A stretch of 30,792 bases of DNA from a virus, in IMG/VR virus record IMGVR_UViG_3300027782_000252, positions 1-30,792 of that record. One strand, 5' to 3'. Both the position numbers and the translations under genes were made by a program. Under the pieces are notes generated by a model. The model was not told the DNA's origin. It was given only the letters and a program-made list of their open reading frames with translations, and ran no database searches. This document shows, piece after piece, positions 162-25,834 of the stretch. Each line of letters opens with the position of its first letter. The stretch's first letter is position 1.

Positions 162-1952
162 ATGGCATCACCCAATGGCGGTATTATCGGAGCATTAAAT
201 CCAACATCGTTTGGAAAGTGTACTCAAACTATTGCTACCTCATCAACAACAGTCACAACACAACCAGGAACTAGAGTAGTTCAAGCAGCTATTATATCTG
301 GTGGAGGAGGAGGTGGAGCAGGTTTTGTTTCTCAAGGTGGAGGAGGAGGTGGTGGTGCAGGTATTCTAAATTGTTCTTCTATTTCAGTTTGTGGAGCAAC
401 ATCCTATCCAATTACAATTGGAGCAGGTGGTGCTGGAGGACCTCCAGCAGCCCCAACAGGTCAAGGTTTAGGAGCAGCAGGAACAGTTTCAAGTTTTAGT
501 ACTAAATCATCAGGAGGTGGAGAAGCAATTATTACTTCTGCTCAATTAGGTGGTACATCAGGATCACCACAATCTAATATAGGTGGAACAGATACACCAT
601 CAAGAGGTGGAGAAGGTGGTGGAGGAGCAGGTAGTGTAGGAACACCTAGTTCATCTCCAAACATAGGAGGAACAGGAGGAGCAGGTTTGGATGTAAGTCC
701 TTCATTTGCAGCACCAATACCTAATTCAGGAATTTATGCAGGAGGAGGAGGAGGAGCAAGTTGGACAACAGGACCAGCATCTCCAGCAGTAGCAGGAGGA
801 CCAGGAGGAGGTGGAAATTCTGGAGTAGCAGGATCATCTTTTACAGCAGGATCTGCTGGAACAACTAACACCGGTGGTGGTGGTGGAGGAGGTGGTGGAT
901 ATTGTGGAGGATCAGGAAATAGAGGAGCTGGTGGGGCCGGCGGTTCGGGAATCGTTATCGTAAAAGAATTAAACAAGGCAAGTGGTGTTTGGAATTTAAA
1001 AAGTCAATTTAGTGCACAGAAACAAGGAACGTGGCCAACACCAGGAACAGCCATATCAGTATCAGCAGATTATTTAGTAGTGGCCGGTGGTGGTGGAGGA
1101 CAAGATGGTAATGGTAACAGAGCAGGAGGAGGTGGTGGAGCTGGAGGATATAGAACATCTTTTCCAGGTGGAACAAAATTAACATTAAGTGGATTTGGGG
1201 TATCCTTATCTTATCCAATAACAATTGGAGCAGGAGGAGCAGGAGGAAATGGAGGTATTCCAGGTGTACCTTGTGAAGGTGGAGCAAGAGGAACTGATTC
1301 AATATTTTCAACAATTACTTCAACAGGTGGAGGTGGAGGTGGAGGAAATGGTTCATCTAATAAACCAGGTGGATCGGGTGGAGGATCTGGTCATAGAGCA
1401 TGTGCAGGTGGATCAGGTAACACACCACCAGTAAGTCCACCACAAGGAAATCCAGGAGGAACGTCTCCTGTACCAAGTGGTTTTGGAGGTAGTGGAGGAG
1501 GTGGTGCTGGTGGAACTGGAAGTAATCCAACTGGAAGTGGTCCAAGTTCAGGAGGTGGACCAGGAGGAGCAGGTAGTGCAAACAGTATTTCAGGATCACC
1601 GGTAACTTATGCTGGAGGTGGTGGGGGTGGAGATTATGGAACAAGTGGAGCATCATCAGGAGGATCAGGTGGAGGAGGATCAGGTGGAAATAAAAGTGGA
1701 TCAATACAAGCTACAGCAGGTACAGTCAATACTGGAGGAGGGGGTGGAGGACAAAGCAACTGGGATCCACCTGCAGGAGCTCCTCAAGGTTACGGAAAAT
1801 CTGGAGGATCAGGTATTGTTATTGTAAGAGCACCAGGACCATCAAATATATCTGCAGCTCCAGGAACTAATACAGTTACAACATTACCGGCACCAGCTGG
1901 AGGTTGTAAAGTTGCGACATTCACGGTTTCTGGAACACTTACAGTTAGCTAA
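162..1952 (+). CDS. Glycine-rich tail adhesin/fibre-tip protein with two tandem modules
   Basis: This 596-aa protein is dominated by Gly runs spaced by Ala, Ser, Thr and Pro. It contains two copies of one module. Each carries YPITIGAGGAGG (residues 82-93 and 351-362) and closes with GGSGIVIV followed by Lys or Arg (260-268 and 548-556). A short Val/Thr-rich tail follows (ATFTVSGTLTVS). Proteins of this kind occur at phage tail tips; the T-even-like gp38 adhesins fold Gly-rich stretches into packed polyglycine helices, and a receptor-binding role is inferred by analogy. An AAAGGACAG ribosome site lies about 10 bases before the ATG. Codons for the first GGSGIVIV are noticeably GC-richer than for the second. 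The dense antisense open frames here are by-products of the GGN repeats. Confidence 0.8.
   Translation: MASPNGGIIGALNPTSFGKCTQTIATSSTTVTTQPGTRVVQAAIISGGGGGGAGFVSQGGGGGGGAGILNCSSISVCGATSYPITIGAGGAGGPPAAPTGQGLGAAGTVSSFSTKSSGGGEAIITSAQLGGTSGSPQSNIGGTDTPSRGGEGGGGAGSVGTPSSSPNIGGTGGAGLDVSPSFAAPIPNSGIYAGGGGGASWTTGPASPAVAGGPGGGGNSGVAGSSFTAGSAGTTNTGGGGGGGGGYCGGSGNRGAGGAGGSGIVIVKELNKASGVWNLKSQFSAQKQGTWPTPGTAISVSADYLVVAGGGGGQDGNGNRAGGGGGAGGYRTSFPGGTKLTLSGFGVSLSYPITIGAGGAGGNGGIPGVPCEGGARGTDSIFSTITSTGGGGGGGNGSSNKPGGSGGGSGHRACAGGSGNTPPVSPPQGNPGGTSPVPSGFGGSGGGGAGGTGSNPTGSGPSSGGGPGGAGSANSISGSPVTYAGGGGGGDYGTSGASSGGSGGGGSGGNKSGSIQATAGTVNTGGGGGGQSNWDPPAGAPQGYGKSGGSGIVIVRAPGPSNISAAPGTNTVTTLPAPAGGCKVATFTVSGTLTVS
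405..1829 (+). repeat. Two tandem Gly-rich protein modules
   Basis: Protein-level duplication inside the adhesin gene. From the YPITIGAGGAGG motif to the end of GGSGIVIV[KR], copy 1 spans 405-965 and copy 2 spans 1212-1829. The motifs are conserved in protein but use different codons: ggcggttcgggaatcgtt in copy 1 against ggaggatcaggtattgtt in copy 2. The copies are therefore old or were acquired separately, not a recent DNA duplication. Confidence 0.7.
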
Positions 1953-2002: not shown

Positions 2003-2641
2003 ATGAATTTACAAAATTACTACTATTATTTTCAAAGCGCATTAACTCCTAGATTTTGTGATGAATTAATTAAATATGGAACTGCACAACAAGAACAATT
2101 AGCTCTTACAGGTGGTCAAACTGAAAAAATTAATAAAGGAAAACCACTAGATGATAAAGATATAGTAGATTTAAAAAAAAAACGAGATTCAAATATAGCT
2201 TGGTTAAATGATCGTTGGATATATAAAGAAATACAACCATTTATACATCAAGCGAATAGACTAGCTGGTTGGAATTTTGATTGGGATTTTTCAGAGTCAT
2301 GTCAATTTACTAAATATAAACTAAATCAATTTTACGATTGGCATTGCGATAGTTGGGAAACTCCATACGCAAATAAAGATAATAAAGATACTAATGGTAA
2401 AATTAGAAAATTATCAGTTACATGTTCATTATCAGATCCAAAAGATTATGAAGGTGGTGAATTAGAGTTTGATTTTAGAAATATGGATCCTGATAAAAAA
2501 TCAATTAGAAAATGTGCAGAAATAGCAGCAAGAGGATCTATTGTAGTATTTCCATCACATGTTTGGCATAGAGTTAAACCTGTAACAAAAGGAACTAGAT
2601 ATTCTTTAGTAATTTGGAACTTAGGATATCCATTTAGATAA
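2003..2641 (+). CDS. 2OG-Fe(II) dioxygenase, PKHD/prolyl-4-hydroxylase type
   Basis: This 212-aa protein has the full active-site pattern of 2-oxoglutarate/Fe(II) dioxygenases. An HxD iron pair lies at H114/D116 (WHCD), the distal His is at H189 (HVWHRV), and the 2OG-binding Arg is at R199 (TRYSLVIW), on the jelly-roll framework usual for the P4H/PKHD branch (EGGELEF, GSIVVFPSHVWH). Such enzymes hydroxylate proteins or small molecules using O2 and 2-oxoglutarate; the substrate here is unknown. It is the first of four adjacent oxygenase-like genes placed between the adhesin and the gp10-like gene. All key residues are present, so it is expected to be active. Confidence 0.85.
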   Translation: MNLQNYYYYFQSALTPRFCDELIKYGTAQQEQLALTGGQTEKINKGKPLDDKDIVDLKKKRDSNIAWLNDRWIYKEIQPFIHQANRLAGWNFDWDFSESCQFTKYKLNQFYDWHCDSWETPYANKDNKDTNGKIRKLSVTCSLSDPKDYEGGELEFDFRNMDPDKKSIRKCAEIAARGSIVVFPSHVWHRVKPVTKGTRYSLVIWNLGYPFR

Positions 2642-2642
2642 A

Positions 2643-3272
2643 ATGAATAATATAGAAAGAGGAATAACACCTTTATTTTCAACTCCTTTATATGTAAGTA
2701 ATTTAAATATTTCTAAAAAAGAAAAAGAATATGTATTAAATTTAGATTACAAAAGAGTAGAATTAAATAACGGATATATATCAAAAAATAATAAAATATT
2801 AAATAATAAAATATTAAATAATATCAATAATCAAATTAAAGAACATTTAAATTTTTATACAAATGAAGTTTATAAAATATCTAAAAATATACAATTTTAT
2901 ATAACTTATTCTTGGGCTATGAAACATATTAAAAATGACAAATCACATAAACATTTTCACGAAAATAGTTTAATATCAGGTGTTGTATATTTTAAAATAC
3001 CTGAAAATTCAGGAAATATAACTTTCTATAAAAAAGATTCTACTATTAATGAAATATCACCATTAATAAGATTAAACTATTTAGAATGGGGATTGTTTAA
3101 TTCATATAAATGGAATTTAAATTTAAAAGAAAATATGATTATTTTATTTCCATCTTCTTTAGAACATGATACAGAAAAAAATAACTCTAATGAAGAAAGA
3201 TATTGCATTTCATTTGATACTTTTATAAAAGGAAAGATAGAAATGAATAATAAACAATTAAAAATAAACTAA
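2643..3272 (+). CDS. Putative 2OG-Fe(II) oxygenase-like protein (HxHxN variant)
   Basis: A 209-aa protein whose core, HFHENSLISGVVYFKIP at about 104-120, matches the style of the TIGR02466-like branch of the 2OG oxygenase superfamily. H104 and H106 are candidate metal ligands, H175 (SSLEHD) is the distal His and R186 (ERYCISFD) the 2OG-binding Arg. The classical HxD aspartate is not obvious, so activity is less certain than for its upstream neighbour. The gene is exceptionally AT-rich, with many Asn, Ile and Lys, and contains a 15-bp tandem repeat. It starts one base after the previous stop and ends overlapping the next ATG, which indicates co-transcription. Confidence 0.6.
   Translation: MNNIERGITPLFSTPLYVSNLNISKKEKEYVLNLDYKRVELNNGYISKNNKILNNKILNNINNQIKEHLNFYTNEVYKISKNIQFYITYSWAMKHIKNDKSHKHFHENSLISGVVYFKIPENSGNITFYKKDSTINEISPLIRLNYLEWGLFNSYKWNLNLKENMIILFPSSLEHDTEKNNSNEERYCISFDTFIKGKIEMNNKQLKIN
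2787..2823 (+). repeat. 15-bp direct tandem repeat inside oxygenase-like gene
   Basis: Two perfect copies of AATAATAAAATATTA (2787-2801, 2802-2816) are followed by 7 bases of a third. The repeat stays in frame and encodes NNKIL-NNKIL-NN. It looks like replication slippage in an AT-rich linker and adds five residues per unit. Confidence 0.8.
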
Positions 3273-3970
3273 TGGCAAAAACGGATCAATTAAACTCAAG
3301 TATATATTTTAGTTCACCTGTATATTCTATAGAAATTCCAGAATGGGTAGAGGATACTAATAAAGTTTGTGATAAATATATTAAAGAAGCTAAAAAGAAT
3401 AATATTAAAGCTATTAAAGAACGTGAAAAGAAATTTGGTAAAAAAATAGGTGATCATGGAATGAGTTATCATTCTACAACATTAGTAGGTGATCCTGCTT
3501 TAAAAGAATTACAAGATTATATAGGTTCAACTTCATGGAATGTTTTAGATCATATGGGTTATGATTTAACTAATTATGAATTATTTTGGACGGAGTTTTG
3601 GGTACAAGAATTTGGAGAAAAAGGTGGTGGTCATCATGAGGGACATATTCATTACGATAATCATATATCTGGCTTTTACTTTTTAAAGTGCTCTGATAAA
3701 ACTTCAATGCCAGTATTTCACGATCCAAGACCTGCTAAACTTATTACACAGTTACCATTAAAGAATGAAACTGATATAACTTTAGGAACACATCAAATTC
3801 ACTATAAACCAAAACCTGGAACAATGATATTCTTCCCTGCTTACATGGAACATCAATATGTGGTTGATGATGGAGTAGAGCCATTTAGATTTATCCATTT
3901 TAATTTACAAGCTGTAAGAAGAATGATTACTGATACAGTAAGAACACAAACTAAAAAGGAGAAAAAATGA
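3272..3970 (+). CDS. Putative 2OG-Fe(II) oxygenase-like protein
   Basis: A 232-aa protein with a His-rich core, HHEGHIHYDNHISGFYF (about 121-137), then FHDPRPAK (149-156), GTMIFFPAYMEHQ with distal His H194, and a late R206 (PFRFIHFNLQ). This layout (H-x-H-x-D/N, SG.YF, FFPA..EH, R...FN) is that of the TIGR02466-like 2OG oxygenase branch, so it is a diverged relative of the gene before it. The N-terminal third has an amphipathic Lys/Glu-rich helix (about 30-58). Its ATG overlaps the previous stop by one base, and it ends in ATGA with the next gene. The substrate is unknown. Confidence 0.65.
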   Translation: MAKTDQLNSSIYFSSPVYSIEIPEWVEDTNKVCDKYIKEAKKNNIKAIKEREKKFGKKIGDHGMSYHSTTLVGDPALKELQDYIGSTSWNVLDHMGYDLTNYELFWTEFWVQEFGEKGGGHHEGHIHYDNHISGFYFLKCSDKTSMPVFHDPRPAKLITQLPLKNETDITLGTHQIHYKPKPGTMIFFPAYMEHQYVVDDGVEPFRFIHFNLQAVRRMITDTVRTQTKKEKK

Positions 3971-4623
3971 GTTTTAAAAAAGATAAGTATGTAATTATTA
4001 AAGAAGCAATATCAGAAGATTTAGCTAAATTTTGTTATGATTATTTTATGATGAAGAAACAAGTAGCTAGAACAATGTTTGATAATAAATATATAAGTCA
4101 ATTTACAGAATATTTTGGTGTATGGAACGATCAACAGGTTCCTGATACTTATTCACACTATTCTGACATTGTAATGGAAACATTACTTGTCAAATTACTT
4201 CCAGTAATGGAAAAAGAGACATCTCTTAAATTAAACCCAAATTATTCTTATGCTAGGATTTATAAAAAAGGAGATGTCTTACATAAACATAAAGATAGAT
4301 TTTCATGTGAGATTTCTACAACTATGCATTTAGGCGGAGGTTGTTGGCCTATATATTTAGAACCAGATGCTTCATTAGGAGGAGTTGATGAAAAGACTGG
4401 TAACTATAAAGCATCTAAATCTAAAGGTGTTAAAGTAATGTTACAACCTGGTGATATGTTAGTTTATAGAGGAAATGAATTAGAACATTGGAGAGATAAA
4501 TTATCTTTTGATGATTGTGGTCAAGTATTTTTACATTACAATAATGTTGAAACTAAAGGGTCTAAAGAAAATATATATGATCGTAGACCTCATTTAGGAC
4601 TTCCAGCTTGGTTTAAAAAATAG
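3967..4623 (+). CDS. 2OG-Fe(II) oxygenase-like protein
   Basis: A 218-aa protein. HKHKD at 106-110 supplies an HxD pair (H108/D110), preceded by YSYARIYKKGDVL, a common lead-in to the iron site in this superfamily. QPGDMLVYRGNELEHWRD (about 160-177) holds the distal His H174. The usual late 2OG-anchoring Arg is not clear: the strand reads QVFLHYNN. The fold assignment is good, activity less so. A strong AAGGAG site (3956-3961) precedes the ATG, which overlaps the previous stop as ATGA. It is the last of four oxygenase-like genes. They differ too much in sequence to be recent duplicates. Confidence 0.7.
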   Translation: MSFKKDKYVIIKEAISEDLAKFCYDYFMMKKQVARTMFDNKYISQFTEYFGVWNDQQVPDTYSHYSDIVMETLLVKLLPVMEKETSLKLNPNYSYARIYKKGDVLHKHKDRFSCEISTTMHLGGGCWPIYLEPDASLGGVDEKTGNYKASKSKGVKVMLQPGDMLVYRGNELEHWRDKLSFDDCGQVFLHYNNVETKGSKENIYDRRPHLGLPAWFKK

Positions 4624-4659: not shown

Positions 4660-6510
4660 ATGCCATTAACAAAACTTACATTTCAGCCTGGCTTAGATAC
4701 ATTAGACACCGAAACTGGAGCAGAAGGACGTTGGGTCGATTGTGATAAGATAAGATTTAGGCAAGGTCTTCCTCAAAAAATAGGTGGTTGGACTAAATAT
4801 AGCAATAGCTATTATGTAGGAGTAGGAAGAGCTTTACTTAATTGGTATGATTTAGCAGGGGCTCGTTATACTTCTTTAGGAACTGATCGTAAAATATACG
4901 TCAATCAAGAAGGAACGAATGCTGATATTACTCCAATTCGTCAAACGAATAGTGCTATAAGTTGTTTTAGTACAGTTATTTCTAATGCGAATGTAACTGT
5001 AAAGCAGACTAATCATAATGCTCTTGATGGTGATTTTGTTACTATCTCTAACGTATCAGTAGCTAATGTTGGTGGTATTTCAAACGTTTCTCTTACTGGT
5101 GAATTTGAAATTCAAAGCATAACTAATGTTGATGCTTATGTTATATTAACGAATACAGCTGCAACTTCTACAGTTACTGCAAATGGAAATGCTACAATTC
5201 AATATCAATTAAATATAGGTCCTTCTCTTCAAACTTTTGGATATGGATGGAACGCAGGCCCTTGGAATGGTGCTCAAGGATGGAATAATCCAGCGATTAC
5301 TTCTACAGTTGAAATAGATTTAAGAAACTGGTCAGTTAATAACTGGGGAGAAGATTTAATTATAACTCAATTAAATGGATCAACTTATTTATGGGATACT
5401 TCTGCTGGTTTTACGAATAATAGAGCTACAATAATAGCAAATGCTCCTACAACTTCTACATTATCAGTGGTTGCAACTGATGCTAGAATATTAGCATGTT
5501 TTGGAACAGAGACAACAATTGGAAATACAGCAACTCAAGATAAACTATTTATTCGTTGGTCTGATCAAGAAAATTATAACGAATGGACACCTAATGTAAT
5601 TAATACAGCGGGTTCTCAACGTATAGCTGGTGGTAGTGAAATAAGATCAGCTAAACCTGCTAAAGGAACTATTTTAGTATGGACTGATACAGCACTTCAC
5701 TCTATGGCGTATATAGGTCCTCCTTTTATTTATGGATTTAGGCAACTCGGTAACGATTGCGGAGCTGTAAGTTTAAATGCGACTATTATAATAAATGATA
5801 TAGCATATTGGATGGCGGATGGACAATTCTTTAGATATGCTGGAACAGTTCAAGAAATAGAATGTCCAGTTATTAATCATGTATTTGATGATATTAATAA
5901 AGTTCAATACTCACAAGTTTATTGCGGATCTAATTCATTTTACTCAGAAGTAACTTGGTATTATTGTTCTGCAAACTCTGATCAAATAGATAGATATGTT
6001 GTGTTTAATTTTGGAGAAAATTCTTGGTACTTTGGAACGATTGAAAGAAGTATTTATCAAGATAATGCTGTAACTGAATTTCCTGTAGGTGGAACTTATT
6101 TTCCTAATAGTACTGCTAACACAATTAGTACAATTAATGGTCTAACTTCAGGTCGTACTTTACTTTATAATATAGAAGATGGTGTTAATGCTGATGGAAG
6201 TGCTATTGTATCTTACATAGAATCAGGTGATGGTGATATAGCAGATGGAGAAGAATTTAGTTTTATAGATAAAATAATACCTGATTTTAAAAGTCAAGTT
6301 GGTAATGCTACGATTACTTTAAGAACAAGAGATTATCCAAACGATACAAAATATGAAAGTACGAATGTTGTAGCTAATTCTACGACTAGGTATAGTAGTG
6401 TTAGAGCTAGAGGTAGACAAGTTGCTATTCGAGTACAAACTAATAATTTAGGAGATAACTGGAGATTTGGTACTCTTAGAGTAAATGTGAATGCTGATGG
6501 AAAAAGATAA
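4660..6510 (+). CDS. P22 gp10-like packaged-DNA stabilisation / tail hub protein
   Basis: This 616-aa protein opens with MPLTKLTFQPGLDTLDTETG and a tract (RWVDCDKIRFRQGLPQKIGGW) typical of the phage stabilisation protein family related to P22 gp10. That protein closes the portal channel after packaging and joins it to the tail. The middle is beta-rich with repeated aromatic motifs (GTILVWTDTALHSM, AYWMADGQFFRYAG, NSWYFGTIERS), suggesting propeller-like repeats. The family is known; the exact place in this virion is inferred. Being followed by a GNAT gene and three internal-protein candidates supports a podovirus-like head-tail block. I chose ATG 4660; another ATG ten bases earlier is in a different frame. 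Confidence 0.65.
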   Translation: MPLTKLTFQPGLDTLDTETGAEGRWVDCDKIRFRQGLPQKIGGWTKYSNSYYVGVGRALLNWYDLAGARYTSLGTDRKIYVNQEGTNADITPIRQTNSAISCFSTVISNANVTVKQTNHNALDGDFVTISNVSVANVGGISNVSLTGEFEIQSITNVDAYVILTNTAATSTVTANGNATIQYQLNIGPSLQTFGYGWNAGPWNGAQGWNNPAITSTVEIDLRNWSVNNWGEDLIITQLNGSTYLWDTSAGFTNNRATIIANAPTTSTLSVVATDARILACFGTETTIGNTATQDKLFIRWSDQENYNEWTPNVINTAGSQRIAGGSEIRSAKPAKGTILVWTDTALHSMAYIGPPFIYGFRQLGNDCGAVSLNATIIINDIAYWMADGQFFRYAGTVQEIECPVINHVFDDINKVQYSQVYCGSNSFYSEVTWYYCSANSDQIDRYVVFNFGENSWYFGTIERSIYQDNAVTEFPVGGTYFPNSTANTISTINGLTSGRTLLYNIEDGVNADGSAIVSYIESGDGDIADGEEFSFIDKIIPDFKSQVGNATITLRTRDYPNDTKYESTNVVANSTTRYSSVRARGRQVAIRVQTNNLGDNWRFGTLRVNVNADGKR

Positions 6511-6952
6511 ATATAAAATAAGACTAGCTCGTATCTCTGATGCTGTAAATATACGGGAATTACTTAAAACATGGTTAAAAGAAGCACCTTTTAACTTTGG
6601 AAATGCTAATAATAAAAAAAGCCTTGAAAATATTATATTTTACATTAGAAATAGTTTTGTTATAGTAGTAGAATACGATAATATTATTGTAGGAACATTA
6701 GGCGCTACAATAGACGAAACGTGGTATAGTGATAAAAAGTTTTTAAGAACTATATGGCTTCATGTGAATCCACGTTATCGAAACTATAGTGTCTTTCGTT
6801 CAATGATGGTCGTATTGAAAGAATATGCAAAAGCAAATCGTTTAACTGCGATTTGTGAAATATTCCAAGGAAAAGAAGTAGCACGTAAACATGTTGCTTT
6901 TTTAAAACTTGGATTTGACGTAATTGGAGGAACTTATATAATCAATGGGTAG
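6491..6952 (+). CDS. GNAT-family N-acetyltransferase
   Basis: A 153-aa protein with the GNAT order of elements: an N-terminal IRLARISDAVNIRELL strand-helix, central IIVGTLGATI strands, TIWLHVNPRYRNYSVFRSMM (the acetyl-CoA loop, here lacking the usual glycines), and the closing FLKLGFDVIGGTYI. It would transfer an acetyl group from acetyl-CoA to an unknown amine. It overlaps the gp10-like gene by 20 bases, and a second in-frame ATG at 6497 could be the true start. Small GNAT genes inside phage structural operons are common and are thought to modify virion or host proteins. The degenerate cofactor loop leaves activity open. Confidence 0.65.
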   Translation: MLMEKDKYKIRLARISDAVNIRELLKTWLKEAPFNFGNANNKKSLENIIFYIRNSFVIVVEYDNIIVGTLGATIDETWYSDKKFLRTIWLHVNPRYRNYSVFRSMMVVLKEYAKANRLTAICEIFQGKEVARKHVAFLKLGFDVIGGTYIING

Positions 6953-16280: not shown

Positions 16281-16622
16281 ATGGCGAAAGTGTTTATAGT
16301 GCAAGAAAATCCAAATGTAAATGTTCTTGCAGCCGGTAGGTATGGCGAATTAATTGCTTTACTAAGACCGTATAAGCAAATAACTTTTTCATCTGATCCT
16401 GTTGTACGTTTAATGAAACAGAAATTAAAAGATTTTAATGATTCTGATTTTTTACTCGCAATGGGAGATCCTGTAGCTATTGCAATTGCATCAATAGTTG
16501 CCTCTGATATAAATAATGGTAGACTAAAAATACTCAAATGGGATAGAGAGCATAGAGCTTACTATCCAGTTGAGATAGATATTTATAATAACAGAAAGGA
16601 GAATGAAGACTATGTCGGATAA
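16281..16622 (+). CDS. Unrecognised 113-aa early protein
   Basis: No family recognised. The chain alternates strands and helices: VFIVQENPNVNVLAAGRYGE, ALLRPYKQITF, DPVVRLMKQKL, DFLLAMGDPVAIAIASIVAS, RLKILKWDREHRAYYPVEIDI. It looks like a small alpha/beta fold with no membrane segment; the Ala/Ile-rich segment near 60-75 is probably a buried helix. It is the first gene of the rightward block, with a good ribosome site, so it is likely made early. It overlaps the next gene by 11 bases. Placement before the SSB-like and primase genes suggests a role in replication start or takeover, but nothing in the sequence proves it. Confidence 0.6.
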   Translation: MAKVFIVQENPNVNVLAAGRYGELIALLRPYKQITFSSDPVVRLMKQKLKDFNDSDFLLAMGDPVAIAIASIVASDINNGRLKILKWDREHRAYYPVEIDIYNNRKENEDYVG

Positions 16623-17193
16623 ATGGATATTTGACGCCGTAGAAAAGCATAAGAAAAAGAAAACTTTACCAAAAGGAGGACTAGAAATAGTTACTGCTAT
16701 TGGTAATAAATTAATAGAAAAAAAGAAAGTTCTTGAAAAAGAGGAAGAAAGATTAAAAGTCTTAAAATCTGAAATTCGAGAAATAGAAGAAAAAGAATTA
16801 CCTGATGCTATGGCATCGTGTAATAATATGACTAGATTTGATCTTGCAGATGGAAGTCAAATTGTAGTTAAAGACGAACTATTTTGTTCTATACCAGATG
16901 ATAAAAGAGCAGGTGCTCTTAAATGGTTAGAAGAAAATGGTCATGCTGAACTAATTAAACATGATGTTAAAGTTAGTTTTGCAAAAGGAGAGTACGATGA
17001 GGCTGATAAACTTATAGGACTTCTTAATAAAAATTTTAAGAATATCCCGTATGAAGAAAAGTCGACCGTGCATCCTGGTACATTAAAAGCTTTTGCTAAA
17101 GAAAGATATTCTTTAGGTGAAACATTACCTGAACAATATTTTAGTGTGTACGAAGCCAGTATAGCAAAAGTAAAACTCGGAAAGGAGAAATAA
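16612..17193 (+). CDS. Coiled-coil early protein, unknown function
   Basis: A 193-aa protein from ATG 16612. An in-frame ATG at 16603 is only one base from the AAGGAG site, so the later start is preferred. It has a basic N-terminus (KHKKKKTLPKGG), a Lys/Glu coiled coil at about 37-62, then an alpha/beta domain (MTRFDLADGSQIVVKDELFC, KWLEENGHAELIKHDVKV, VHPGTLKAFAKERYSLG). Proteins with this plan are common next to phage SSB or recombination genes and are sometimes called Gam- or nuclease-inhibitor-like, but I cannot confirm that. Directly followed by the SSB-like gene with a three-base gap. Confidence 0.6.
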   Translation: MSDKWIFDAVEKHKKKKTLPKGGLEIVTAIGNKLIEKKKVLEKEEERLKVLKSEIREIEEKELPDAMASCNNMTRFDLADGSQIVVKDELFCSIPDDKRAGALKWLEENGHAELIKHDVKVSFAKGEYDEADKLIGLLNKNFKNIPYEEKSTVHPGTLKAFAKERYSLGETLPEQYFSVYEASIAKVKLGKEK

Positions 17194-17196
17194 TAA

Positions 17197-17997
17197 ATGG
17201 CTGAAGTAAAACAAGTAGTAAAGAAACCAGCAAGTAATGGATCTCTAGTAGGTAACATTAATGCTGATTTAATTCTGAAAAATGCCGGTAAAGGATTACA
17301 GAATGTCACTAACGATGATATTACAATTCCTAGACTAGCTATAGTTCAGTCAGGTTCACCTCAAAGAAAGAAAAAAGATGAAAAGTATATTGAGGGAGCT
17401 GAAGAAGGTATGATTTTTAATACTGTTACTAATACTGTATATGGTAACACTATTGAAGTTATTCCTTGTGGATATAGAAAAACCTATGTAGAGTGGGTAC
17501 CTAGAGAAGATGGTGGCGGATTAGTAGCAGTTCATGATATGAAACCTGCTAATACTAAAACTGATCCTAAAACTAGAAAATCTTTATTAGGTAAAAATCA
17601 AATAGTTGATACTGCAGAACACTTTGTGCTTCTTCAAAAAGAAGATGGTACACATGAACCTGCTGTATTAAATATGACTTCTAGTAATCTTTCAGTTTCA
17701 AGAAAGTGGAATACACTTCTTAAAATGAAAAAGATTAATGTTAAAGGTCAAACTATTGATCCACCTAGTTTTCTATATAAATTTAATCTTTCTACTGTTC
17801 AAGCTGAGAATGACTTGGGTAGTTGGTTTAAATATAAAATAGAAGAAATAGGTCAAATTGATAGTAAAGATGTATTTAGTCAAGCTGAAGGTCTAGCTGA
17901 ATCAGTGGACAAAGGCAAAGTTAAAGCATCTGAACCTGTAGAAGTTGATCAACCTGTAACTGATGATTCTGACGATAACGAAGAAGCACCTTTTTAA
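17197..17997 (+). CDS. Single-stranded-DNA-binding-protein-like, acidic tail ending in Phe
   Basis: This 266-aa protein has a central beta-rich region (ITIPRLAIVQSG, GNTIEVIPCGYRKTYVEW, EHFVLLQKEDG, SFLYKFNLSTV). Its C-terminus is strongly acidic and closes with DDSDDNEEAPF. An acidic tail with a terminal Phe is the known protein-docking device of bacterial SSB and T7 gp2.5. I infer ssDNA binding, protecting template and recruiting the primase, polymerase and exonuclease encoded next. An AAGGAG site nine bases before the ATG suggests strong translation, as expected for a stoichiometric protein. The core domain was not matched to a named family. Confidence 0.55.
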   Translation: MAEVKQVVKKPASNGSLVGNINADLILKNAGKGLQNVTNDDITIPRLAIVQSGSPQRKKKDEKYIEGAEEGMIFNTVTNTVYGNTIEVIPCGYRKTYVEWVPREDGGGLVAVHDMKPANTKTDPKTRKSLLGKNQIVDTAEHFVLLQKEDGTHEPAVLNMTSSNLSVSRKWNTLLKMKKINVKGQTIDPPSFLYKFNLSTVQAENDLGSWFKYKIEEIGQIDSKDVFSQAEGLAESVDKGKVKASEPVEVDQPVTDDSDDNEEAPF

Positions 17998-20469: not shown

Positions 20470-21970
20470 AACTTTAAAGATATTTGGAAGTCCTGGTACT
20501 GGTAAGACAACAGAACTATTAAAAATATTAGAAGAAAAAATAGCAGAAGGATATAAAGCAAATAGAATTGGATTTTTTTCTTTTACACGCAGAGCTATTA
20601 AAGAAGCAAGATCAAGAGTTATTAAAAAATTTAAATTATCAGAAGATGATTTAGAATATTTTAGAACTATACATAGTCTATGTTATAGAGCATTAAATAT
20701 TAATAGTGGTCAAGTATTTAAAGGAGAACGTATAAAAGAATTTAGTGAATTAGTAAGAGTAGAAATGACCGGAGTATCAGAGGAAGATAATTCAGGACTT
20801 ATTATTGGAAGTAAAAAAGGTGATTTATTATTATTCTGTGACGAGGTAGCTAGATCAAGTGAAAGAGATTTAAAATCAGTATGGAAAGAATTAGAGTGTG
20901 AACACTCTTGGGAAGAGCAAGACTATTTTAGTAAATCATATTCTAATTTTAAAAAAACTAAAAATCTTCTTGACTTTACAGATATGTTAGATGTATTTTT
21001 AGAACAAGAGTATGTACCTGATTTAGATATAGTATTTGTAGATGAAGCACAAGACTTAACTATTAAACAATGGAAAGTAATAGAAAAATTAACTAAGAAT
21101 TGTAAATTGAGATATATAGCAGGTGACGATGATCAAGCTATTTATAAATGGTCAGGCGCTGACGTAACTAATTTTTTAAATATAAAAGGTGAAGTTAAAG
21201 TTCTTCCTAAAAGTCATAGACTTCCTAAAGTAATTCATAAACTAGCTTGTAATATTACTAATAGAATTTCATTAAGACAATCTAAAGAATGGACTTCTAA
21301 AGATGAAGAAGGAAGTATAACTGAAATATCTTCTATAGAAGAAGTAGATATGACTTCAGGAGAATGGTTAGTATTAGCAAGATCAGGATATCAATTACAT
21401 AGAGCTGAATCTTATTGTAAACGTATGGGTTGGTTTTATGAAAGAGGATATCAAGAATTTAAAGCTAATAAATTTGTCGTAGCCATTAGATCATGGATCA
21501 AATTAAATAAAGGAGAAACTATTTCTTTTGAAGAACTTCAAAAACTATATTCTTGTTTAAGAAGTAACGTAGGAATTAAACGTGGATTTAAATCATTAAA
21601 AGATGTAGATACAAATTTAGAATTTAATTTAGAGTATTTAAAAGAAAATTGTGGATTACTTGCAAATGGAGATTGGAGAGAAATAATTCATGGACTTGAT
21701 CCTGAAGATATGTTAATGTTTGAATCTTTAGTTAAATCTGGAGATATATTTAAAAATAAAGCAAGGATTAGATTATCTACTATACACGCTATTAAAGGTG
21801 GTGAAAGTGATAATGTTATTGTAATTAGTGATATATCTTATAAAACTTGGAAAAGATTAAATGTAGAACCCGATGATGAACATAGAGTATTTTATGTTGC
21901 AGTAACTAGAGCTAAAAAGAATTTGTTCATTCTACAGCCTGAAACGAAGTATAGTTATACAATACATTAA
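20459..21970 (+). CDS. UvrD/Rep-like SF1 DNA helicase
   Basis: This 503-aa SF1A helicase has Walker A GSPGTGKTT (10-18), motif Ia FTRRAIKEA, Walker B VDEAQD (194-199), motif III GDDDQAIYKWSGAD, motif IV-like LPKSHRLP, motif V STIHAIKGGESDNV and motif VI YVAVTRAKKNLF. It is shorter than UvrD/Rep (about 670-720 aa), so the 1B/2B insertions are reduced. It would unwind DNA 3' to 5'. With no hexameric replicative helicase in the window, it may serve at the phage fork. Start and stop overlap both neighbours (TAATG at the 3' end), placing it in the replication operon. Confidence 0.92.
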   Translation: MDNKTLKIFGSPGTGKTTELLKILEEKIAEGYKANRIGFFSFTRRAIKEARSRVIKKFKLSEDDLEYFRTIHSLCYRALNINSGQVFKGERIKEFSELVRVEMTGVSEEDNSGLIIGSKKGDLLLFCDEVARSSERDLKSVWKELECEHSWEEQDYFSKSYSNFKKTKNLLDFTDMLDVFLEQEYVPDLDIVFVDEAQDLTIKQWKVIEKLTKNCKLRYIAGDDDQAIYKWSGADVTNFLNIKGEVKVLPKSHRLPKVIHKLACNITNRISLRQSKEWTSKDEEGSITEISSIEEVDMTSGEWLVLARSGYQLHRAESYCKRMGWFYERGYQEFKANKFVVAIRSWIKLNKGETISFEELQKLYSCLRSNVGIKRGFKSLKDVDTNLEFNLEYLKENCGLLANGDWREIIHGLDPEDMLMFESLVKSGDIFKNKARIRLSTIHAIKGGESDNVIVISDISYKTWKRLNVEPDDEHRVFYVAVTRAKKNLFILQPETKYSYTIH

Positions 21971-23028
21971 TGAAAGCATTAGGAGCATATATATTCGCAG
22001 GTGGATTTGCATTAGGAGTTGAAAAACATTTTGATATTTTAGCTCATTTTGAAATGAAACCTGGAGTTTATAAAAAAACGTTTCAAGCTAATTTTCCTAA
22101 TGTTGAATATTACGAAGGTGAAGAAAATTGGCCTAAAGAAAAATTTAAAAATAAAGTAGATTTTATTTATTGTAACCCGCCGTGTGCTCCGTGGTCTAAT
22201 TTAGGATCCACTCAAAAAGGAGCAATGGCTTGGAGAGATGACCCTAGAATAGCATGCTGGAGAAATGCTTTTAATTTATTAAAAGATTTAAAACCTAAAG
22301 CTATTGTACTTGAATCAGTTCCTAGAGTTTATAGTAAGAATGGCGGATATGAAATGATTCAACAATTAACTAAAGAAGCAAATGAACTTGGATATTATAC
22401 TACTCATTTATTAATTGACGGTGGCTATACTGGATTAAATCATAGTCGTAAAAGATTTTTTTTTATAGCAACTAAGTATCATTTAAGTGTTAGACCTTTA
22501 AATTTTTCTCCGTTACCAACTACAGGAGATGTTCTTAAAAATTTTAAATTAGAACATAAAAAAGATATAGGACATTTAATGAAGTTAGGAAAAAACGAAA
22601 TTCCTTATTTAAAACATTGTAAACAAGGAGAAAGTTTAAGAGTAACTTGGGAAAGATATAATCCTCCAGAAACTTGGAAACGTGGAGGAATGAGAGGAGG
22701 AGTAAAAGGTAGACCTCAGTTTATGAAATGGAGATTAAAGAGTGACGAACATATACCAGTTATAGCTGGAGGTTTTTATATACATCCAACTGAAGATAGA
22801 TTATTCGGACATAAAGAATTAGCTTATATGACTGGTTATCCTCATGATTATATTTGGGAAGGACCAGTTTCTACTATAGGTTCACAAATTGCGAGAAGTG
22901 TTATGCCACCTGTAGCTGAATATGTAGCAAGGATAATTAAAAATAGTATAGAAAGTAAAAAAGAAAATAAAGAAATACATCAAGTGGTTGATTTTAGAAA
23001 ACCACCTGAGCAAGAAAGATTGATATGA
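21970..23028 (+). CDS. DNA (cytosine-5-)-methyltransferase family protein
   Basis: This 352-aa protein has C5-MTase motifs in order. A compressed motif I (IFAGGFALGVE, 8-18, one residue shorter than the usual FxGxGG), motif IV CNPPCAPWS with catalytic Cys C72, motif VI ESV (115-117, usually ENV), motif VIII NHSRKRFFFIA (157-167), the late RLFGHKELAYMTGYP block and motif X QIARSVMPPVAEY. A target-recognition region lies at about 215-265 (WKRGGMRGGVKGRPQFM). It should methylate carbon 5 of cytosine in a set sequence using SAM, protecting phage DNA or marking host DNA. It heads a nucleotide-modification cluster in which cytosine may already be C5-substituted. Confidence 0.85.
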   Translation: MKALGAYIFAGGFALGVEKHFDILAHFEMKPGVYKKTFQANFPNVEYYEGEENWPKEKFKNKVDFIYCNPPCAPWSNLGSTQKGAMAWRDDPRIACWRNAFNLLKDLKPKAIVLESVPRVYSKNGGYEMIQQLTKEANELGYYTTHLLIDGGYTGLNHSRKRFFFIATKYHLSVRPLNFSPLPTTGDVLKNFKLEHKKDIGHLMKLGKNEIPYLKHCKQGESLRVTWERYNPPETWKRGGMRGGVKGRPQFMKWRLKSDEHIPVIAGGFYIHPTEDRLFGHKELAYMTGYPHDYIWEGPVSTIGSQIARSVMPPVAEYVARIIKNSIESKKENKEIHQVVDFRKPPEQERLI

Positions 23029-23444
23029 CAGATATATTAAAAGACATAGATAATTTCCATAAAAAATATGGCTTTGAAAAGAATGAAAAGATTGATATAC
23101 CTAGTAATAGTGAACTTATTAATTTTAGAACTGCTTTTTTAATGGAAGAACTTGCTGAATATACTAATGCTATAACTAAAAAAGATGCAGCTGGAGCTTT
23201 AGATGCTTTAGTTGACATAGTTTATATAGCTTTAGGAACGGCTTGGTTATTTAATTTACCATTTGAAAAAGCATGGAACGAAGTTCAAAAAGCTAATATG
23301 AGTAAGATTAGAGCTAAAGATAAAACAGGAAAACGTGGAACTAAATTTGACGTTGTAAAACCTAAAGATTGGAAAGCTCCTAATATAGAAAAAATTATAG
23401 AAGAAGAAAGAGAAATAAATGAAAATTTTAGTAACAGGATTTAA
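23025..23444 (+). CDS. MazG-like all-alpha NTP pyrophosphohydrolase (candidate dCTPase)
   Basis: A 139-aa helical protein with the metal-binding motifs of the all-alpha NTP-PPase fold: EELAEY (41-46, E42/E45) and ALDALVDIVYIALGTA (about 58-73, D60/D64), the form common in phage MazG-like proteins. It would hydrolyse a nucleoside triphosphate to monophosphate and pyrophosphate. Its specificity cannot be read from sequence. Just upstream of glycosyltransferase-like, kinase and dCMP-acting enzymes, a dCTPase/dUTPase role like T4 gp56 is attractive, since it would remove dCTP and supply dCMP. ATGA overlap at the start; 26-base overlap with the next gene. Confidence 0.75.
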   Translation: MTDILKDIDNFHKKYGFEKNEKIDIPSNSELINFRTAFLMEELAEYTNAITKKDAAGALDALVDIVYIALGTAWLFNLPFEKAWNEVQKANMSKIRAKDKTGKRGTKFDVVKPKDWKAPNIEKIIEEEREINENFSNRI

Positions 23445-24444
23445 CGCATTATCAATTGGAACTGCTCGCAGTCCATTAAATATTGCAACTTCTGCTAGAA
23501 TACTCCCTACTGTTTTAAAAGAATTAGGACACGAAGTAATTCATAAAGCGATCATCCCGGGAGAAGATGTATCAATGTATGATAAGGTATTTGTATTCGT
23601 ATTTGGTCCTAATAGTTTATCAGCAAGATATTGGTATGGAGCTGCATACACTATAATTAAAAGACCTGATGCTATTGTATCTATAGATGATTGGCAAACT
23701 AAAGATTCAGTAAGTGGATTTGGAACTTTTAGTAGAGGACATTGGAGAATATGGAAGAAAGTAAGTCAAGCTGGAAATCCTGTTGGTAAAGTTTATTGGG
23801 ACGAAGCACAACCTTATAAAAAAGAAATAGAAGATTTAGTTGATACATTTGCTTTTGAAAAATGGCCGCATACTTTATTAGTACCAGCTTACGATGGTGG
23901 TAATTATGATGAATTAGGAATAAAAGCGAATAAAATTATTAATTGGGATCCTACACCTTATACTGATACTTATTTAAATCATACTGATAATGATAATTTA
24001 TTTTCAAAAGAAAATAAAGAAAGAGAAAAAGCATGGATACTTGCAAGTTTAGTAAGTAAAGATAGTTGGTTTAATAAGCAAGTATTTAATTGGAATGTTA
24101 AAAGATTTGGAAATGTAAAAGAAAAACAAGTACGTTTAAAAGAACACGAATTATTTGAAGAATATAAAAAAGTATGGGGAATGATTAGTCCTCCACATTA
24201 TCATACTATGAAAGGAAGTGGTTGGTGGAGAGTTAGATATAAAATAGCAAACGATGCTGGTAATATTATATATGCACATCCAGAAGAAGCTAAAGTTTTA
24301 GGATTAAATATTGATTTAAAAATTATAGAAAACGGTAGTAATGAAGAATTAAAAGAATTAATAAGTAGTCAAGCTTATATATTAAAGAAAAAGTTTTGGA
24401 CTAAAGAAAGGACTAAAGAATTTTTTAAATGCTTGCTAGGATAA
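23419..24444 (+). CDS. GT-B-like protein, candidate DNA glycosyltransferase
   Basis: A 341-aa protein. The N-terminal half looks like a Rossmann domain: MKILVTGFNALSIG, a helix ending KELGHEV, a strand YDKVFVFVFGP (54-64), and DAIVSIDDW. The C-terminal half looks like the second GT-B domain: AWILASLVSKDSWF (205-218), WNVKRFGN (225-232), a sugar-nucleotide-type segment RVRYKIANDAGNIIYAHPEE (271-290), then a closing helix (SNEELKELISSQAYILKKKF). This order recalls T4 DNA beta-glucosyltransferase, from memory and not by alignment. Placement directly before dNMP kinase and the dCMP-hydroxymethylase-like gene supports transfer of a sugar onto modified cytosine. A GT acting on a non-DNA target is the alternative. 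Confidence 0.55.
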   Translation: MKILVTGFNALSIGTARSPLNIATSARILPTVLKELGHEVIHKAIIPGEDVSMYDKVFVFVFGPNSLSARYWYGAAYTIIKRPDAIVSIDDWQTKDSVSGFGTFSRGHWRIWKKVSQAGNPVGKVYWDEAQPYKKEIEDLVDTFAFEKWPHTLLVPAYDGGNYDELGIKANKIINWDPTPYTDTYLNHTDNDNLFSKENKEREKAWILASLVSKDSWFNKQVFNWNVKRFGNVKEKQVRLKEHELFEEYKKVWGMISPPHYHTMKGSGWWRVRYKIANDAGNIIYAHPEEAKVLGLNIDLKIIENGSNEELKELISSQAYILKKKFWTKERTKEFFKCLLG

Positions 24445-25004
24445 TAATATTAGAAGGACCTGATGGAGTTGGTAAAACTACATTAGCTAAAAAATTTAAA
24501 GAGTTATATCCTAACTCTTATTATATTCATTTAAGAGTACATAATAATATGGAGTTATGGCATACAGCAGCTGCAAGACTTGCTGTTAAAATGAAAGAAA
24601 AAGGAAAATTAGTTATATTAGATAGACATTGGCCATCTGAACAATGTTATTCTTATATTTATAGAGAAGGTCCTTCTTATGATGCTTATAGTATATGGAG
24701 ATATTTAAATCGTGAAGGAGCTATATACGTTTGGTGTATACCTGATGATACTAAAAAAGTAAAAGATAATCATAATAGAAATAAAAAAATTAGACATGAA
24801 GAATATGATGATATTGATAAAGTTATTGATATGTATTTAAATTGTTGGGAAGATAAACATCCTAAACAAAATAGTTTTTTATCTTTATTATGTCCTTTAA
24901 AAGACCGTAAAGATTTTGTTCGTTATGATATGTTTAAAGAAGGTCATGATTTAAATAGAGTTGTAGAAAAAATAGAAGAAACGGCTTTTGTAAATAGTAT
25001 ATGA
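24429..25004 (+). CDS. Deoxynucleoside monophosphate kinase (thymidylate-kinase-like)
   Basis: This 191-aa P-loop kinase has Walker A GPDGVGKTT (10-18) and the TMPK-type DRHWPSE (65-71; DRxxxS). A lid region with basic residues lies at about 108-125 (KKVKDNHNRNKKIRHEEYDD). It phosphorylates a dNMP to the dNDP with ATP. In thymidylate kinases the substrate is dTMP; in T4 the unrelated-looking gp1 acts on hydroxymethyl-dCMP and others. Its four-base overlap with the TS-family gene downstream argues that it handles that enzyme's product. Length is close to the TMPK norm of about 205 aa. Confidence 0.8.
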   Translation: MLARIIILEGPDGVGKTTLAKKFKELYPNSYYIHLRVHNNMELWHTAAARLAVKMKEKGKLVILDRHWPSEQCYSYIYREGPSYDAYSIWRYLNREGAIYVWCIPDDTKKVKDNHNRNKKIRHEEYDDIDKVIDMYLNCWEDKHPKQNSFLSLLCPLKDRKDFVRYDMFKEGHDLNRVVEKIEETAFVNSI

Positions 25005-25834
25005 ATCAAATAGATCAAGATTATAAAAATTTTATAGTTGAAATAATAAGAGAATTTGATTATGAGTGTGCACCTCGTCAATTAAAAATTTATGAAAAAT
25101 TAAATCATTCTTTTCAAATTGATATGAATTTGCCAATCATAAGTATTAGAGAAAGAAATTTAAATTATAGTTTTATGTTTGGCGAAGCAGCATGGATATT
25201 AGATGGTAGAAATGATCTTTTAACTATTTCAAAGTATATGAAAAATATAAAAAGATTTAGTGATGATGGTGTAACTTTCTTCGGAGCTTATGGTCCTAAA
25301 ATTATAACTCAAATAAGTTATATTATAGATACACTTAAAAAAGATAAAGATTCAAGACAAGCGGTACTTACTATATGGAGAGAGAATCCTAGATCAAGTA
25401 AAGATATTCCATGTACTGTAGCTATGCAATTCTTTTTAAGACCTAGAGGTGATGAATTATATTTACATTGTATAACTACAATGAGAAGTAACGATGTATG
25501 GTTAGGTCTTCCTTACGATAGTTTTAATTTTAGTGCAATCAGTTTCGTAATCGCTTGTCATTTAAATAATTTAGGAATTCAATGTAAGTTAGGAAAATTA
25601 TATATAAACGCAGGTAGTCGTCATCTATACGATACAAATTTAAAAGATGCTAATATCGTAAGAGCAGGAATTCAAAACTATGAGTGTGATTTTTCTTTTA
25701 ATGATTTACTTGAAAAGTATAAATTAAATCCTATGAGAATAGTAGAAACTTTATATCAAGCTGCTGATATAAAAATAGGAAAAGAAGATGGACTTACTCT
25801 TTCTGATAAGTTACAAATAATTAAAAATGGATAA
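25001..25834 (+). CDS. Thymidylate-synthase-family enzyme, predicted dCMP hydroxymethylase
   Basis: This 277-aa protein has the TS fold landmarks: E62 in GEAAWILDG, DSRQAVLTIW (117-126), catalytic Cys C138 in IPCTVAMQFF (classical TS has PPCH), RSNDVWLGLPYD (162-173), and H207/Y209 in GSRHLYD. The residue after the aromatic in GLPY is D173, where thymidylate synthases carry Asn (L. casei N229). Asp here is the established mark of enzymes acting on dCMP, as in T4 dCMP hydroxymethylase (D179). The loop that reads IW in classical TS is FF here (93-94), and the C-terminus ends KNG, without the TS closing hydrophobic residue. It likely makes 5-hydroxymethyl-dCMP; 5-methyl-dCMP is the alternative. 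Confidence 0.7.
   Translation: MNQIDQDYKNFIVEIIREFDYECAPRQLKIYEKLNHSFQIDMNLPIISIRERNLNYSFMFGEAAWILDGRNDLLTISKYMKNIKRFSDDGVTFFGAYGPKIITQISYIIDTLKKDKDSRQAVLTIWRENPRSSKDIPCTVAMQFFLRPRGDELYLHCITTMRSNDVWLGLPYDSFNFSAISFVIACHLNNLGIQCKLGKLYINAGSRHLYDTNLKDANIVRAGIQNYECDFSFNDLLEKYKLNPMRIVETLYQAADIKIGKEDGLTLSDKLQIIKNG

Follow-up and report, generated by a model that had tools for sequence, protein, structure and literature searches.

A block of 2OG-Fe(II) oxygenase genes exchanged with the 3′ end of a glycine-rich phage fibre gene, with the fibre as a putative substrate

Described systems and the layout of the locus

In marine phages, genes for 2OG-Fe(II) oxygenases rank with the most frequent of those still without an explanation, and metabolic helper gene is the description that they commonly receive. 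The closest described relatives of the locus reported here are the clusters of 2OG genes found in pelagiphages and in T4-like cyanophages (HTVC023P-type, HTVC008M, and S-SM1; Wittmers 2022, Sullivan 2010), which contain the same families (PHROG 61, 81, and 2954) and in which the 2OG genes adjoin a 'ferrochelatase', as they do in the window (the whole stretch of 30,792 nucleotides analysed, from a water-borne phage). The accessible parts of those papers treat the genes as auxiliary metabolic ones accompanied by a ferrochelatase and mention neither a link to a glycine-rich fibre nor the 2OG nature of the partner. On the fibre side, cyanophage Pam3 gp24 and the Bxb1 tail-tip protein have a glycine-rich domain whose fold matches that of GlyR, the fibre protein of the window, and the glycine-rich tail fibre gp38 of Salmonella phage S16 can be likened to it through the Pam3 paper, the accessible part of which describes gp24 together with a chaperone (PMC9608196). 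GlyR differs from gp24 in having tandem domains, a proline-rich motif, and a linked oxygenase cassette.

Among the enzymes, the bacterial prolyl-4-hydroxylase (P4H) of P. putida (4j25) resembles ox4 in fold (Z 15.2) but with 11–12% identity, and PKHD hydroxylases (PiuC) resemble ox1 in sequence profile (E 1e-8). The partner of that P4H is EF-Tu, whereas the enzymes in the window are linked genetically to a virion protein, the fibre, as a putative substrate. CanE, a lasso-peptide 2OG-dependent Asp β-hydroxylase, is described in the available part of its report as acting on a ribosomal peptide (PMC9266682); it is comparable by that description, and a relative of ox4 occurs in a Brevundimonas lasso-peptide locus, but the phage cassette, unlike the CanE system, has no RiPP genes. 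The prolyl 4-hydroxylase of Chlorella virus PBCV-1 is a virus-encoded 2OG hydroxylase, cited in PMC9301287, that is considered to target viral proteins. PBCV-1 is a eukaryotic virus, unlike the window phage, and this likeness is drawn from the literature alone.

The locus comprises a fibre gene, four consecutive oxygenase-like ORFs on the same strand, designated ox1–ox4 and joined by 1-base gaps or overlaps of 1–4 bases, and a downstream structural gene:

162..1952, + strand: GlyR, glycine-rich tail fibre/adhesin of 596 residues; Gly_rich_2 (PF21722), Pfam E 1.6e-35
240–965 and 1029–1832, + strand: the two Gly_rich_2 (PF21722) domains of GlyR, from domain placement
1416..1460, + strand: proline-rich signature GNTPPVSPPQGNPGG in GlyR, a proposed hydroxylation target from its conservation in fibres
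1800..1952, + strand: C-terminal tail of GlyR, which goes with the cassette; mostly 80–96% DNA identity where aligned
2003..2641, + strand: ox1, 2OG-Fe(II) oxygenase, PKHD/P4H-like; PF13640 E 5e-17, PHROG 61 E 1.4e-40
2643..3272, + strand: ox2, PF13759-type 2OG-Fe(II) oxygenase (E 3e-20), variable-slot gene
3272..3970, + strand: ox3, PF13759-type 2OG-Fe(II) oxygenase (E 2e-13)
3967..4623, + strand: ox4, 2OG-Fe(II) oxygenase labelled 'ferrochelatase'; PHROG 2954 E 1.7e-43, AF2 pLDDT 96.1
4660..6510, + strand: downstream virion structural protein, PHROG 3287 (E 3.5e-75), on the backbone side of the breakpoint

The upstream neighbour, taken for an adhesin in an earlier note made on this DNA, is a glycine-rich PF21722 protein with a tail-fibre fold; the downstream neighbour, a tail hub in that note, carries the PHROG 3287 label 'virion structural protein'. 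The AF2 model of GlyR residues 290–596 (pLDDT 90.7) matches the Bxb1 tail tip (9d93 Qa; VIA Z 13.5) and the fibre of cyanophage Pam3 (Z 12.4) at 27–29% identity. The Gly_rich_2 domain and the modelled fold together identify GlyR as a glycine-rich tail fibre of the PF21722 (Pam3 gp24-like) kind, and its putative receptor binding is read from the fold alone. These matches came from fold comparison; at the sequence level, an HMM built on the fibre domain had no hit to a solved structure. Searching phage records with the domain as a single sequence likewise gave no match, probably because low-complexity filtering masks it.

The four oxygenases and the 'ferrochelatase' label

The presence of four consecutive 2OG-Fe(II) oxygenase-like genes is borne out by Pfam for ox1–ox3 and by the AF2 fold for ox4, and it is nearly certain that all four are enzymes of this superfamily; turnover is predicted. 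They share 20–27% pairwise identity, and BLASTP among them gave no significant pair (the top pair, ox2/ox3, had E 0.08), in agreement with the earlier view of a mutually divergent set without recent expansion. ox1 has the family profile, the HxD...H triad, and the C-terminal 2OG-binding Arg; its residues H114-x-D116 (2342–2350), distal H189, and R199 are all invariant in six phages, and its profile matches PiuC/PKHD structures (E 1e-8 to 6e-8). ox2 and ox3 are placed in the superfamily by family profile and solved relatives, the profile of their relatives matching 3bvc at 9e-18 and both 3bvc and 2rg4 at about E 1e-17. The motif residues are H104, H106, N108, and H175 in ox2 and H125, H127, D129, and H194 in ox3. 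Across 56/56 relatives of this family, neither of the two motif His nor the distal His varies, and the position four past the first His is Asn in 43, Asp in 8, and another residue in 5, a pattern suggesting that the third iron ligand may be a non-carboxylate. The metal motifs listed earlier for ox1–ox4 (HxD, HxHxN, HxHxD, and HxD) are thus literally there, but HxHxN and HxHxD are one family motif, and for this reason the differing motifs do not prove four chemistries.

ox4 had no Pfam match in the scan of the window. Its AF2 model, the one made among the four enzymes, has a 2OG-oxygenase fold over the whole chain, with residues 1–218 aligning to 2OG oxygenases; the PDB matches listed (Foldseek P4H 1e-8; VIA Z up to 16.5) fall in the 2OG-oxygenase class, with no ferrochelatase fold among them. 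The iron triad consists of H108 (4288–4290), D110 (4294–4296), and H174 (4486–4488), and HxD...H is retained in 65/65 family members. The usual position of the 2OG-binding Arg is occupied by an invariant Gln186; Arg176 is invariant, and Arg111 occurs in 64/65. The 'ferrochelatase' label can be traced to T4-GC 615, entered as 'Hyp. with ferrochetalase domain' in the accessible part of PMC3037559, and is carried for ox4 by PHROG 2954 and GenBank. That ox4 is, as published, a true ferrochelatase that provides haem or iron chemistry alongside the oxygenases is nevertheless extremely improbable, given the whole-chain fold, the invariant HxD...H, and the absence of any ferrochelatase family from the Pfam matches of the 65 relatives (E ≤ 0.1) and from the window scan. 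Because ox4 has an ordinary 2OG-oxygenase fold in the model and an invariant HxD...H, the 'ferrochelatase partner' published for the 2OG oxygenases of pelagiphages looks misnamed, and no earlier correction of the name was found in the openly accessible literature. Putting it right concerns PHROG 2954 and numerous GenBank records, as well as two or more papers in which 'ferrochelatase' figures as a function of its own.

A chromosomal relative of ox4 in the Brevundimonas lasso-peptide locus (HMM E 6.5e-42) fits a peptide substrate by analogy. The neighbours of cellular ox4 relatives are mixed (ABC ATPase, YebC, acyltransferases, heptosyltransferase, MiaB, and OmpA), and no single substrate therefore follows from context. 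The profile of ox4 resembles Naegleria Tet very weakly (E 0.2), and DNA repair was suggested once in the accessible part of PMC3037559, so that the enzymes might act in TET/JBP- or AlkB-like base modification or repair. This is very improbable, as PF13640 and PF13759 are neither TET nor AlkB families and the cassette is placed among virion genes. The link to base modification raised earlier finds no support, the thymidylate-synthase-like, dCMP deaminase, and C5-methylase genes lying at 22.0–26.3 kb, ~17 kb away.

Linkage and exchange with the fibre gene

In relatives, ox1, ox3, and ox4 recur nearly everywhere as a near-universal block. The ox2 slot is empty or otherwise filled in most of them, the slot beside ox1 being taken by endonuclease VII-type genes, a methyltransferase, or DUF6445, and a single-sequence scan found ox2 in just one other contig (98% identical). 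The claim that the four genes are a maintained set accordingly holds for ox1, ox3, and ox4 but not for ox2. Synonymous and non-synonymous differing codons number 3621:1020 in ox4, 2719:1079 in ox1, and 3482:1822 in ox3 (the neutral non-synonymous fraction is 0.81), and strong purifying selection acts on all three. The best reading of 2003–4623 is a cassette of free-standing 2OG-Fe(II) oxygenases that is mobile, with a core of ox1, ox3, and ox4 and a variable slot occupied here by ox2.

The block lies directly downstream of the glycine-rich fibre gene and is exchanged with the 3′ end of that gene between otherwise different phages. Among relatives with enough flank, a glycine-rich ORF lies upstream of ox4 in 45/47 close and 48/66 distant ones, leaving about one-quarter of the distant relatives without it, and downstream in 0/21 and 8/70, respectively; the independent scattering that would have spoken against the earlier proposal was not seen. 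The cassette and fibre tail share ~70–99% DNA identity across phages with unrelated downstream genes. In 80 contigs, ox1, ox3, ox4, and the fibre tail are similar at the DNA level, whereas the next gene (PHROG 3287) has 33–57% amino acid identity in all measurable cases but three, and is ≥90% identical in only 3/80. The block therefore moves together with the fibre gene's end. Among 15 complete phage genomes, the 2OG genes within 6 kb of a Gly_rich_2 domain number 49 as compared with 13.0 expected, a count exceeding every one of 20,000 rotations; in eight cyanophages chosen regardless of gene position, the numbers are 23 and 5.7 (p 0.0007). The control moron families PF02945, PF00535, and PF13578 occurred too seldom in these genomes to control for specificity, and none of their few places is within 6 kb of Gly_rich_2. 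In P-SSM2 and S-SCSM1 no 2OG gene lies that close, and in HTVC008M the cassette and the Gly_rich_2 gene are on opposite strands.

The accessible parts of PMC3037559, PMC9602691, and PMC11561400 present such enzymes as auxiliary metabolic genes, which would act on host metabolism, for instance by consuming 2-oxoglutarate and thereby changing nitrogen signalling or by oxidizing host metabolites, with adjacency to the fibre incidental. The many cyanophage 2OG genes located far from any fibre gene agree with this view. It is nonetheless unlikely to account for the locus, since it leaves unexplained the post-fibre position across podo- and myoviruses, the co-exchange with the fibre 3′ end, and the several non-redundant enzymes side by side. 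The linkage to the adhesin gene is also compatible with a recombination hot spot.

Proline content and the putative fibre substrate

The proline-rich signature of GlyR has invariant P137, Q139, and G140 in 48 fibre sequences, with P133, P134, and S136 at ≥90%. The motif is present in 64/72 glycine-rich ORFs (relative set L001–L081), and fibre domains adjoining a cassette often bear PPVSPPQG. Gly_rich_2 domains adjoining a cassette contain 2.7–9.4% Pro as compared with 2.1–3.7% elsewhere (Mann-Whitney p 0.0009), a trend from few genomes that is confounded by ancestry and has p 0.03 in cyanophages alone. As far as sequence goes, these proline-rich, cassette-linked domains fit hydroxylation of the fibre.

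At a fibre locus that often recombines, enzymes for host surface sugars, lipids, receptors, or small molecules might also gather, owing to their value with a particular receptor, and leave the fibre unmodified. The varied genes accepted beside ox1, the exchange of the module as one unit, the UDP-glucose dehydrogenase encoded by the window phage, and the heptosyltransferase or acyltransferases adjoining cellular ox4 relatives are in keeping with such hitch-hiking, but the proline enrichment and conserved proline motif of cassette-linked fibres and the lasso-peptide context of one ox4 relative point to polypeptide substrates, and we regard it as rather doubtful. The enzyme genes are linked to, and exchanged with, the gene of their putative substrate, and we infer at roughly an even chance that the fibre is that substrate. 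The module would then comprise a mobile adhesin and modifying enzymes that hydroxylate it, perhaps at proline. Produced with the fibre late in infection, the enzymes would spend O2 and host 2-oxoglutarate on hydroxylating its side chains before or during folding, the top candidate sites being the conserved prolines of GNTPPVSPPQGNPGG and of the LPAPAGG tail, together with polar residues of the tip loops; the modification could give a more stable glycine-rich lattice or change receptor recognition.

The broader proposal that abundant tailed phages of aquatic habitats carry such a mobile module and devote at least two 2OG-Fe(II) oxygenases, the 'ferrochelatase' among them, to hydroxylating glycine/proline-rich receptor-binding fibres is tentative, falling somewhat short of an even chance; no report of phage fibre hydroxylation was found in the openly accessible literature. 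If true, virion maturation and host recognition would depend on O2, iron, and 2-oxoglutarate, and adhesin hydroxylation would add a further, new level to host recognition by phages. The fibre link gives the 2OG oxygenases of marine phages a specific, testable candidate substrate. Among individual genomes, a 2OG gene and a proline-poor fibre are 1.7 kb apart in Syn33, and in HTVC023P the upstream Gly_rich_2 domains contain 9.4% Pro as compared with 2.0% in the downstream one.

Composition of the cassette and its iron-binding motifs

The virus record is a single contig of 30,792 bases with 30% G+C. Its four consecutive 2OG-Fe(II) oxygenase genes, together called the cassette, are the following.

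Genes of the oxygenase cassette in the window
2003–2641, + strand: ox1, 212 residues, matching PF13640 (5e-17)
2643–3272, + strand: ox2, 209 residues, matching PF13759 (3e-20)
3272–3970, + strand: ox3, 232 residues, matching PF13759 (2e-13)
3967–4623, + strand: ox4, 218 residues, matching PHROG 2954, "ferrochelatase" (1.7e-43)

Neighboring genes are spaced by 1 base or overlap by 1–4 bases on one strand, and the arrangement is therefore operon-like. Pairwise global identities are 20–27%, and BLASTP among the four proteins gave a best pair, ox2/ox3, with an E value of only 0.08; a recent tandem expansion is therefore ruled out, as the earlier note had held. The four metal motifs listed in that note all occur, although HxHxN and HxHxD are variants within a single family. 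Among 56 aligned ox2 and ox3 relatives, the two histidines of HxH and the distal histidine are invariant, whereas the position four after the first histidine is Asn in 43, Asp in 8, and another residue in 5, so that the third iron ligand of this family is uncertain. ox1 has a canonical HxD...H motif plus Arg and resembles PKHD-type hydroxylases.

The "ferrochelatase" label of ox4

No Pfam family matched ox4 in a scan of the window. An AlphaFold2 model, built from an alignment of 65 diverse relatives with identities down to 26%, has a mean pLDDT of 96.1 and a pTM of 0.91. The best solved matches in Foldseek were Pseudomonas putida prolyl-4-hydroxylase (1e-8) and other 2OG enzymes, and realignment over the whole chain gave Z scores of 16.5 for SnoN, 15.3 for PHD2, and 15.2 for P4H. 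His108, Asp110, and His174 are conserved in all 65 relatives, and an invariant Gln is present where the 2OG-anchoring Arg usually sits. Because ox4 has the 2OG-oxygenase fold and the HxD...H motif, and none of the 65 relatives matches a ferrochelatase family among the Pfam profiles, its assignment as a ferrochelatase is very unlikely to be correct.

The label originates in a 2010 cyanophage comparison, as T4-GC 615, "Hyp. with ferrochetalase domain" (PMC3037559). A later paper treats "ferrochelatase" as a separate "partner" gene (PMC9599517), and another treats it as an enriched function in its own right (PMC11561400). On the present evidence, the reported oxygenase next to a ferrochelatase is an oxygenase next to an oxygenase. 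These gene families and their clustering were already known; the corrected class of PHROG 2954 and the systematic tie of the oxygenases to a glycine-rich fiber are new.

Two other labels were noted. PHROG 3531, likewise named "ferrochelatase," matches both ox1 (1.7e-6) and ox4 (2e-12) and so probably represents a further family of 2OG oxygenases. Weak matches (E 0.01–0.03) link the C-terminal region of ox1 to PHROG 274 and 2297, "DNA endonuclease (V)"; genes so named lie within 2OG cassettes of 023Pt_psg01, Mosig, and S-SM1, and this location suggests that the label may also be wrong.

Conservation and transfer with the fiber gene

A search with ox4 identified at least 80 viral contigs at 89% identity or higher. 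The gene order in the contigs listed is Gly-rich gene, (a gene of ~150 residues), ox1, variable slot, ox3, ox4, and structural gene. Among the matches listed, all 47 close contigs with sufficient upstream DNA contain ox1, 44 a PF13759-type gene, and 45 an upstream Gly-rich ORF; a downstream Gly-rich ORF was found in none of the 21 testable close contigs. In 66 more distant relatives, these three features occur in 56, 40, and 48, respectively, and a downstream Gly-rich ORF in 8 of 70. The maintained four-gene set proposed earlier is thus reduced to a recurring core of ox1, ox3, and ox4: a single-sequence scan that used ox2 as the query yielded one additional contig, with the same gene order, and elsewhere the slot either lacks a gene or is occupied by endonuclease VII-type genes, by different 2OG genes, by DUF6445, or by a methyltransferase. 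Purifying selection on the core genes is strong, as judged from synonymous and non-synonymous differing codons. For ox4 these number 3621 and 1020, respectively (neutral non-synonymous fraction, 0.81), and in one contig, L002, 43 and 0.

Inserted endonuclease VII-type genes between ox1 and ox3 (L006 864–1277; L032 3826–4299) are possibly homing elements that aid movement of the cassette. The ~150-residue gene, conserved, of no known family, and often located between the fiber gene and ox1 (L007 2216–2662 and relatives), possibly encodes a fiber chaperone or tip protein.

In the at least 80 contigs, ox1, ox3, and ox4 have ~70–99% DNA identity to the window, and the final 150 bases of the fiber gene mostly 80–96%. 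Among the matches listed, the next gene (4660–6510, a virion structural protein) is alignable as DNA past its first ~110–280 bases in three contigs only (L003, L005, and L049), and elsewhere, where measurable, its product has 33–57% protein identity. The cassette and fiber tail are alike and the next gene is divergent, which places an exchange boundary between ox4 and the next gene. By these sequence comparisons, the fiber tail and oxygenases have been transferred as a unit among differing backbones.

The glycine-rich fiber and possible substrates

The protein encoded at 162–1952 has two PF21722 (Gly_rich_2) domains. The predicted model of its C-terminal half (pLDDT 90.7) is similar to the Bxb1 tail-tip protein (Z 13.5) and to the Pam3 fiber (Z 12.4, 27% identity), followed by the ALK glycine-rich domain (Z ~5). 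From these domains and the predicted fold, the neighbor of the cassette is a glycine-rich tail fiber that resembles the two phage proteins in the fold of its glycine-rich domain. In Pam3, the variable distal tip of this domain is proposed to function in host receptor recognition (PMC9608196).

Linkage was examined in 15 complete phage genomes with Gly_rich_2 against 20,000 random rotations of the fiber position. Within 6 kb of Gly_rich_2 there are 49 scored 2OG genes versus 13.0 expected, exceeding every rotation, and 10 of the 15 genomes have at least one within 3 kb (3.9 expected, p 0.001). Eight cyanophages selected blind to gene position gave 23 versus 5.7 expected (p 0.0007). P-SSM2 and S-SCSM1 are exceptions to the clustering, and control moron families are too rare in these genomes to show specificity.

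The proline content of Gly_rich_2 domains is 2.7–9.4% (median 6.4%) in the 11 phages that carry a 2OG gene no more than 3 kb away versus 2.1–3.7% in five without, a correlation (Mann-Whitney p 0.0009) from which shared ancestry is not removed. In cyanophages alone p is 0.03, with Syn33 contrary to the trend. In the cultured pelagiphage HTVC023P, proline is 9.4% in the Gly_rich_2 domains encoded upstream of the cassette versus 2.0% in that of a separate downstream Gly-rich gene. Such separate downstream genes with very low proline (1.6–3.3%), accompanied by Pro-richer upstream fibers, were seen in L083 (10072–10998), L197, L213, L220, and L222. The conserved motif PPxSPxQG, typically GN(T/S)PPVSP(P/S)QGN, is present in 64 of 72 close Gly-rich ORFs among the matches listed and in 24 of 84 distant ones.

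The computations establish the enzyme class, the selection, the linkage to the fiber gene, and the joint transfer. We infer from them, at even chances, that the cassette enzymes hydroxylate the fiber at the time of virion maturation; the modified sites would probably be conserved prolines or tip residues. Hitch-hiking of the oxygenases at a recombination hot spot and roles in host metabolism jointly take up most of the remaining probability.

One genome scan found ox4 relatives in 46 cellular or MAG contigs, some of which appear to be phage contigs in bins. A Legionella relative adjoins a PF13640 oxygenase, and a Brevundimonas protein of the ox4 family (HMM E 6.5e-42) is encoded in a lasso-peptide locus with genes for PqqD, a cyclase, and B2:

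L321 2457–7067: lasso-peptide locus of Brevundimonas poindexterae, in which the gene for the ox4-family 2OG oxygenase separates those for the cyclase and B2

This oxygenase may be a lasso tailoring enzyme not yet described. Known lasso 2OG enzymes, CanE being one, act by hydroxylating the precursor while it is linear (PMC9266682), and by analogy with this precedent and locus a peptide substrate for ox4 is plausible.

Elsewhere in the window, a GNAT acetyltransferase gene (6491–6952) that overlaps the downstream structural gene and an ejection-protein gene may encode another modifier of virion proteins. A run of genes at 21970–26309, for a C5 cytosine methylase, MazG-like and thymidylate-kinase-like proteins, a divergent thymidylate synthase, and dCMP deaminase, may be a cluster for the modification of nucleotides or DNA. 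Genes for UDP-glucose dehydrogenase and then NAD synthase (28129–30149) adjoin that for DNA polymerase, and Pam3 gp33-like and gp34-like proteins, common to a freshwater cyanomyophage, are encoded at 16603–17997.
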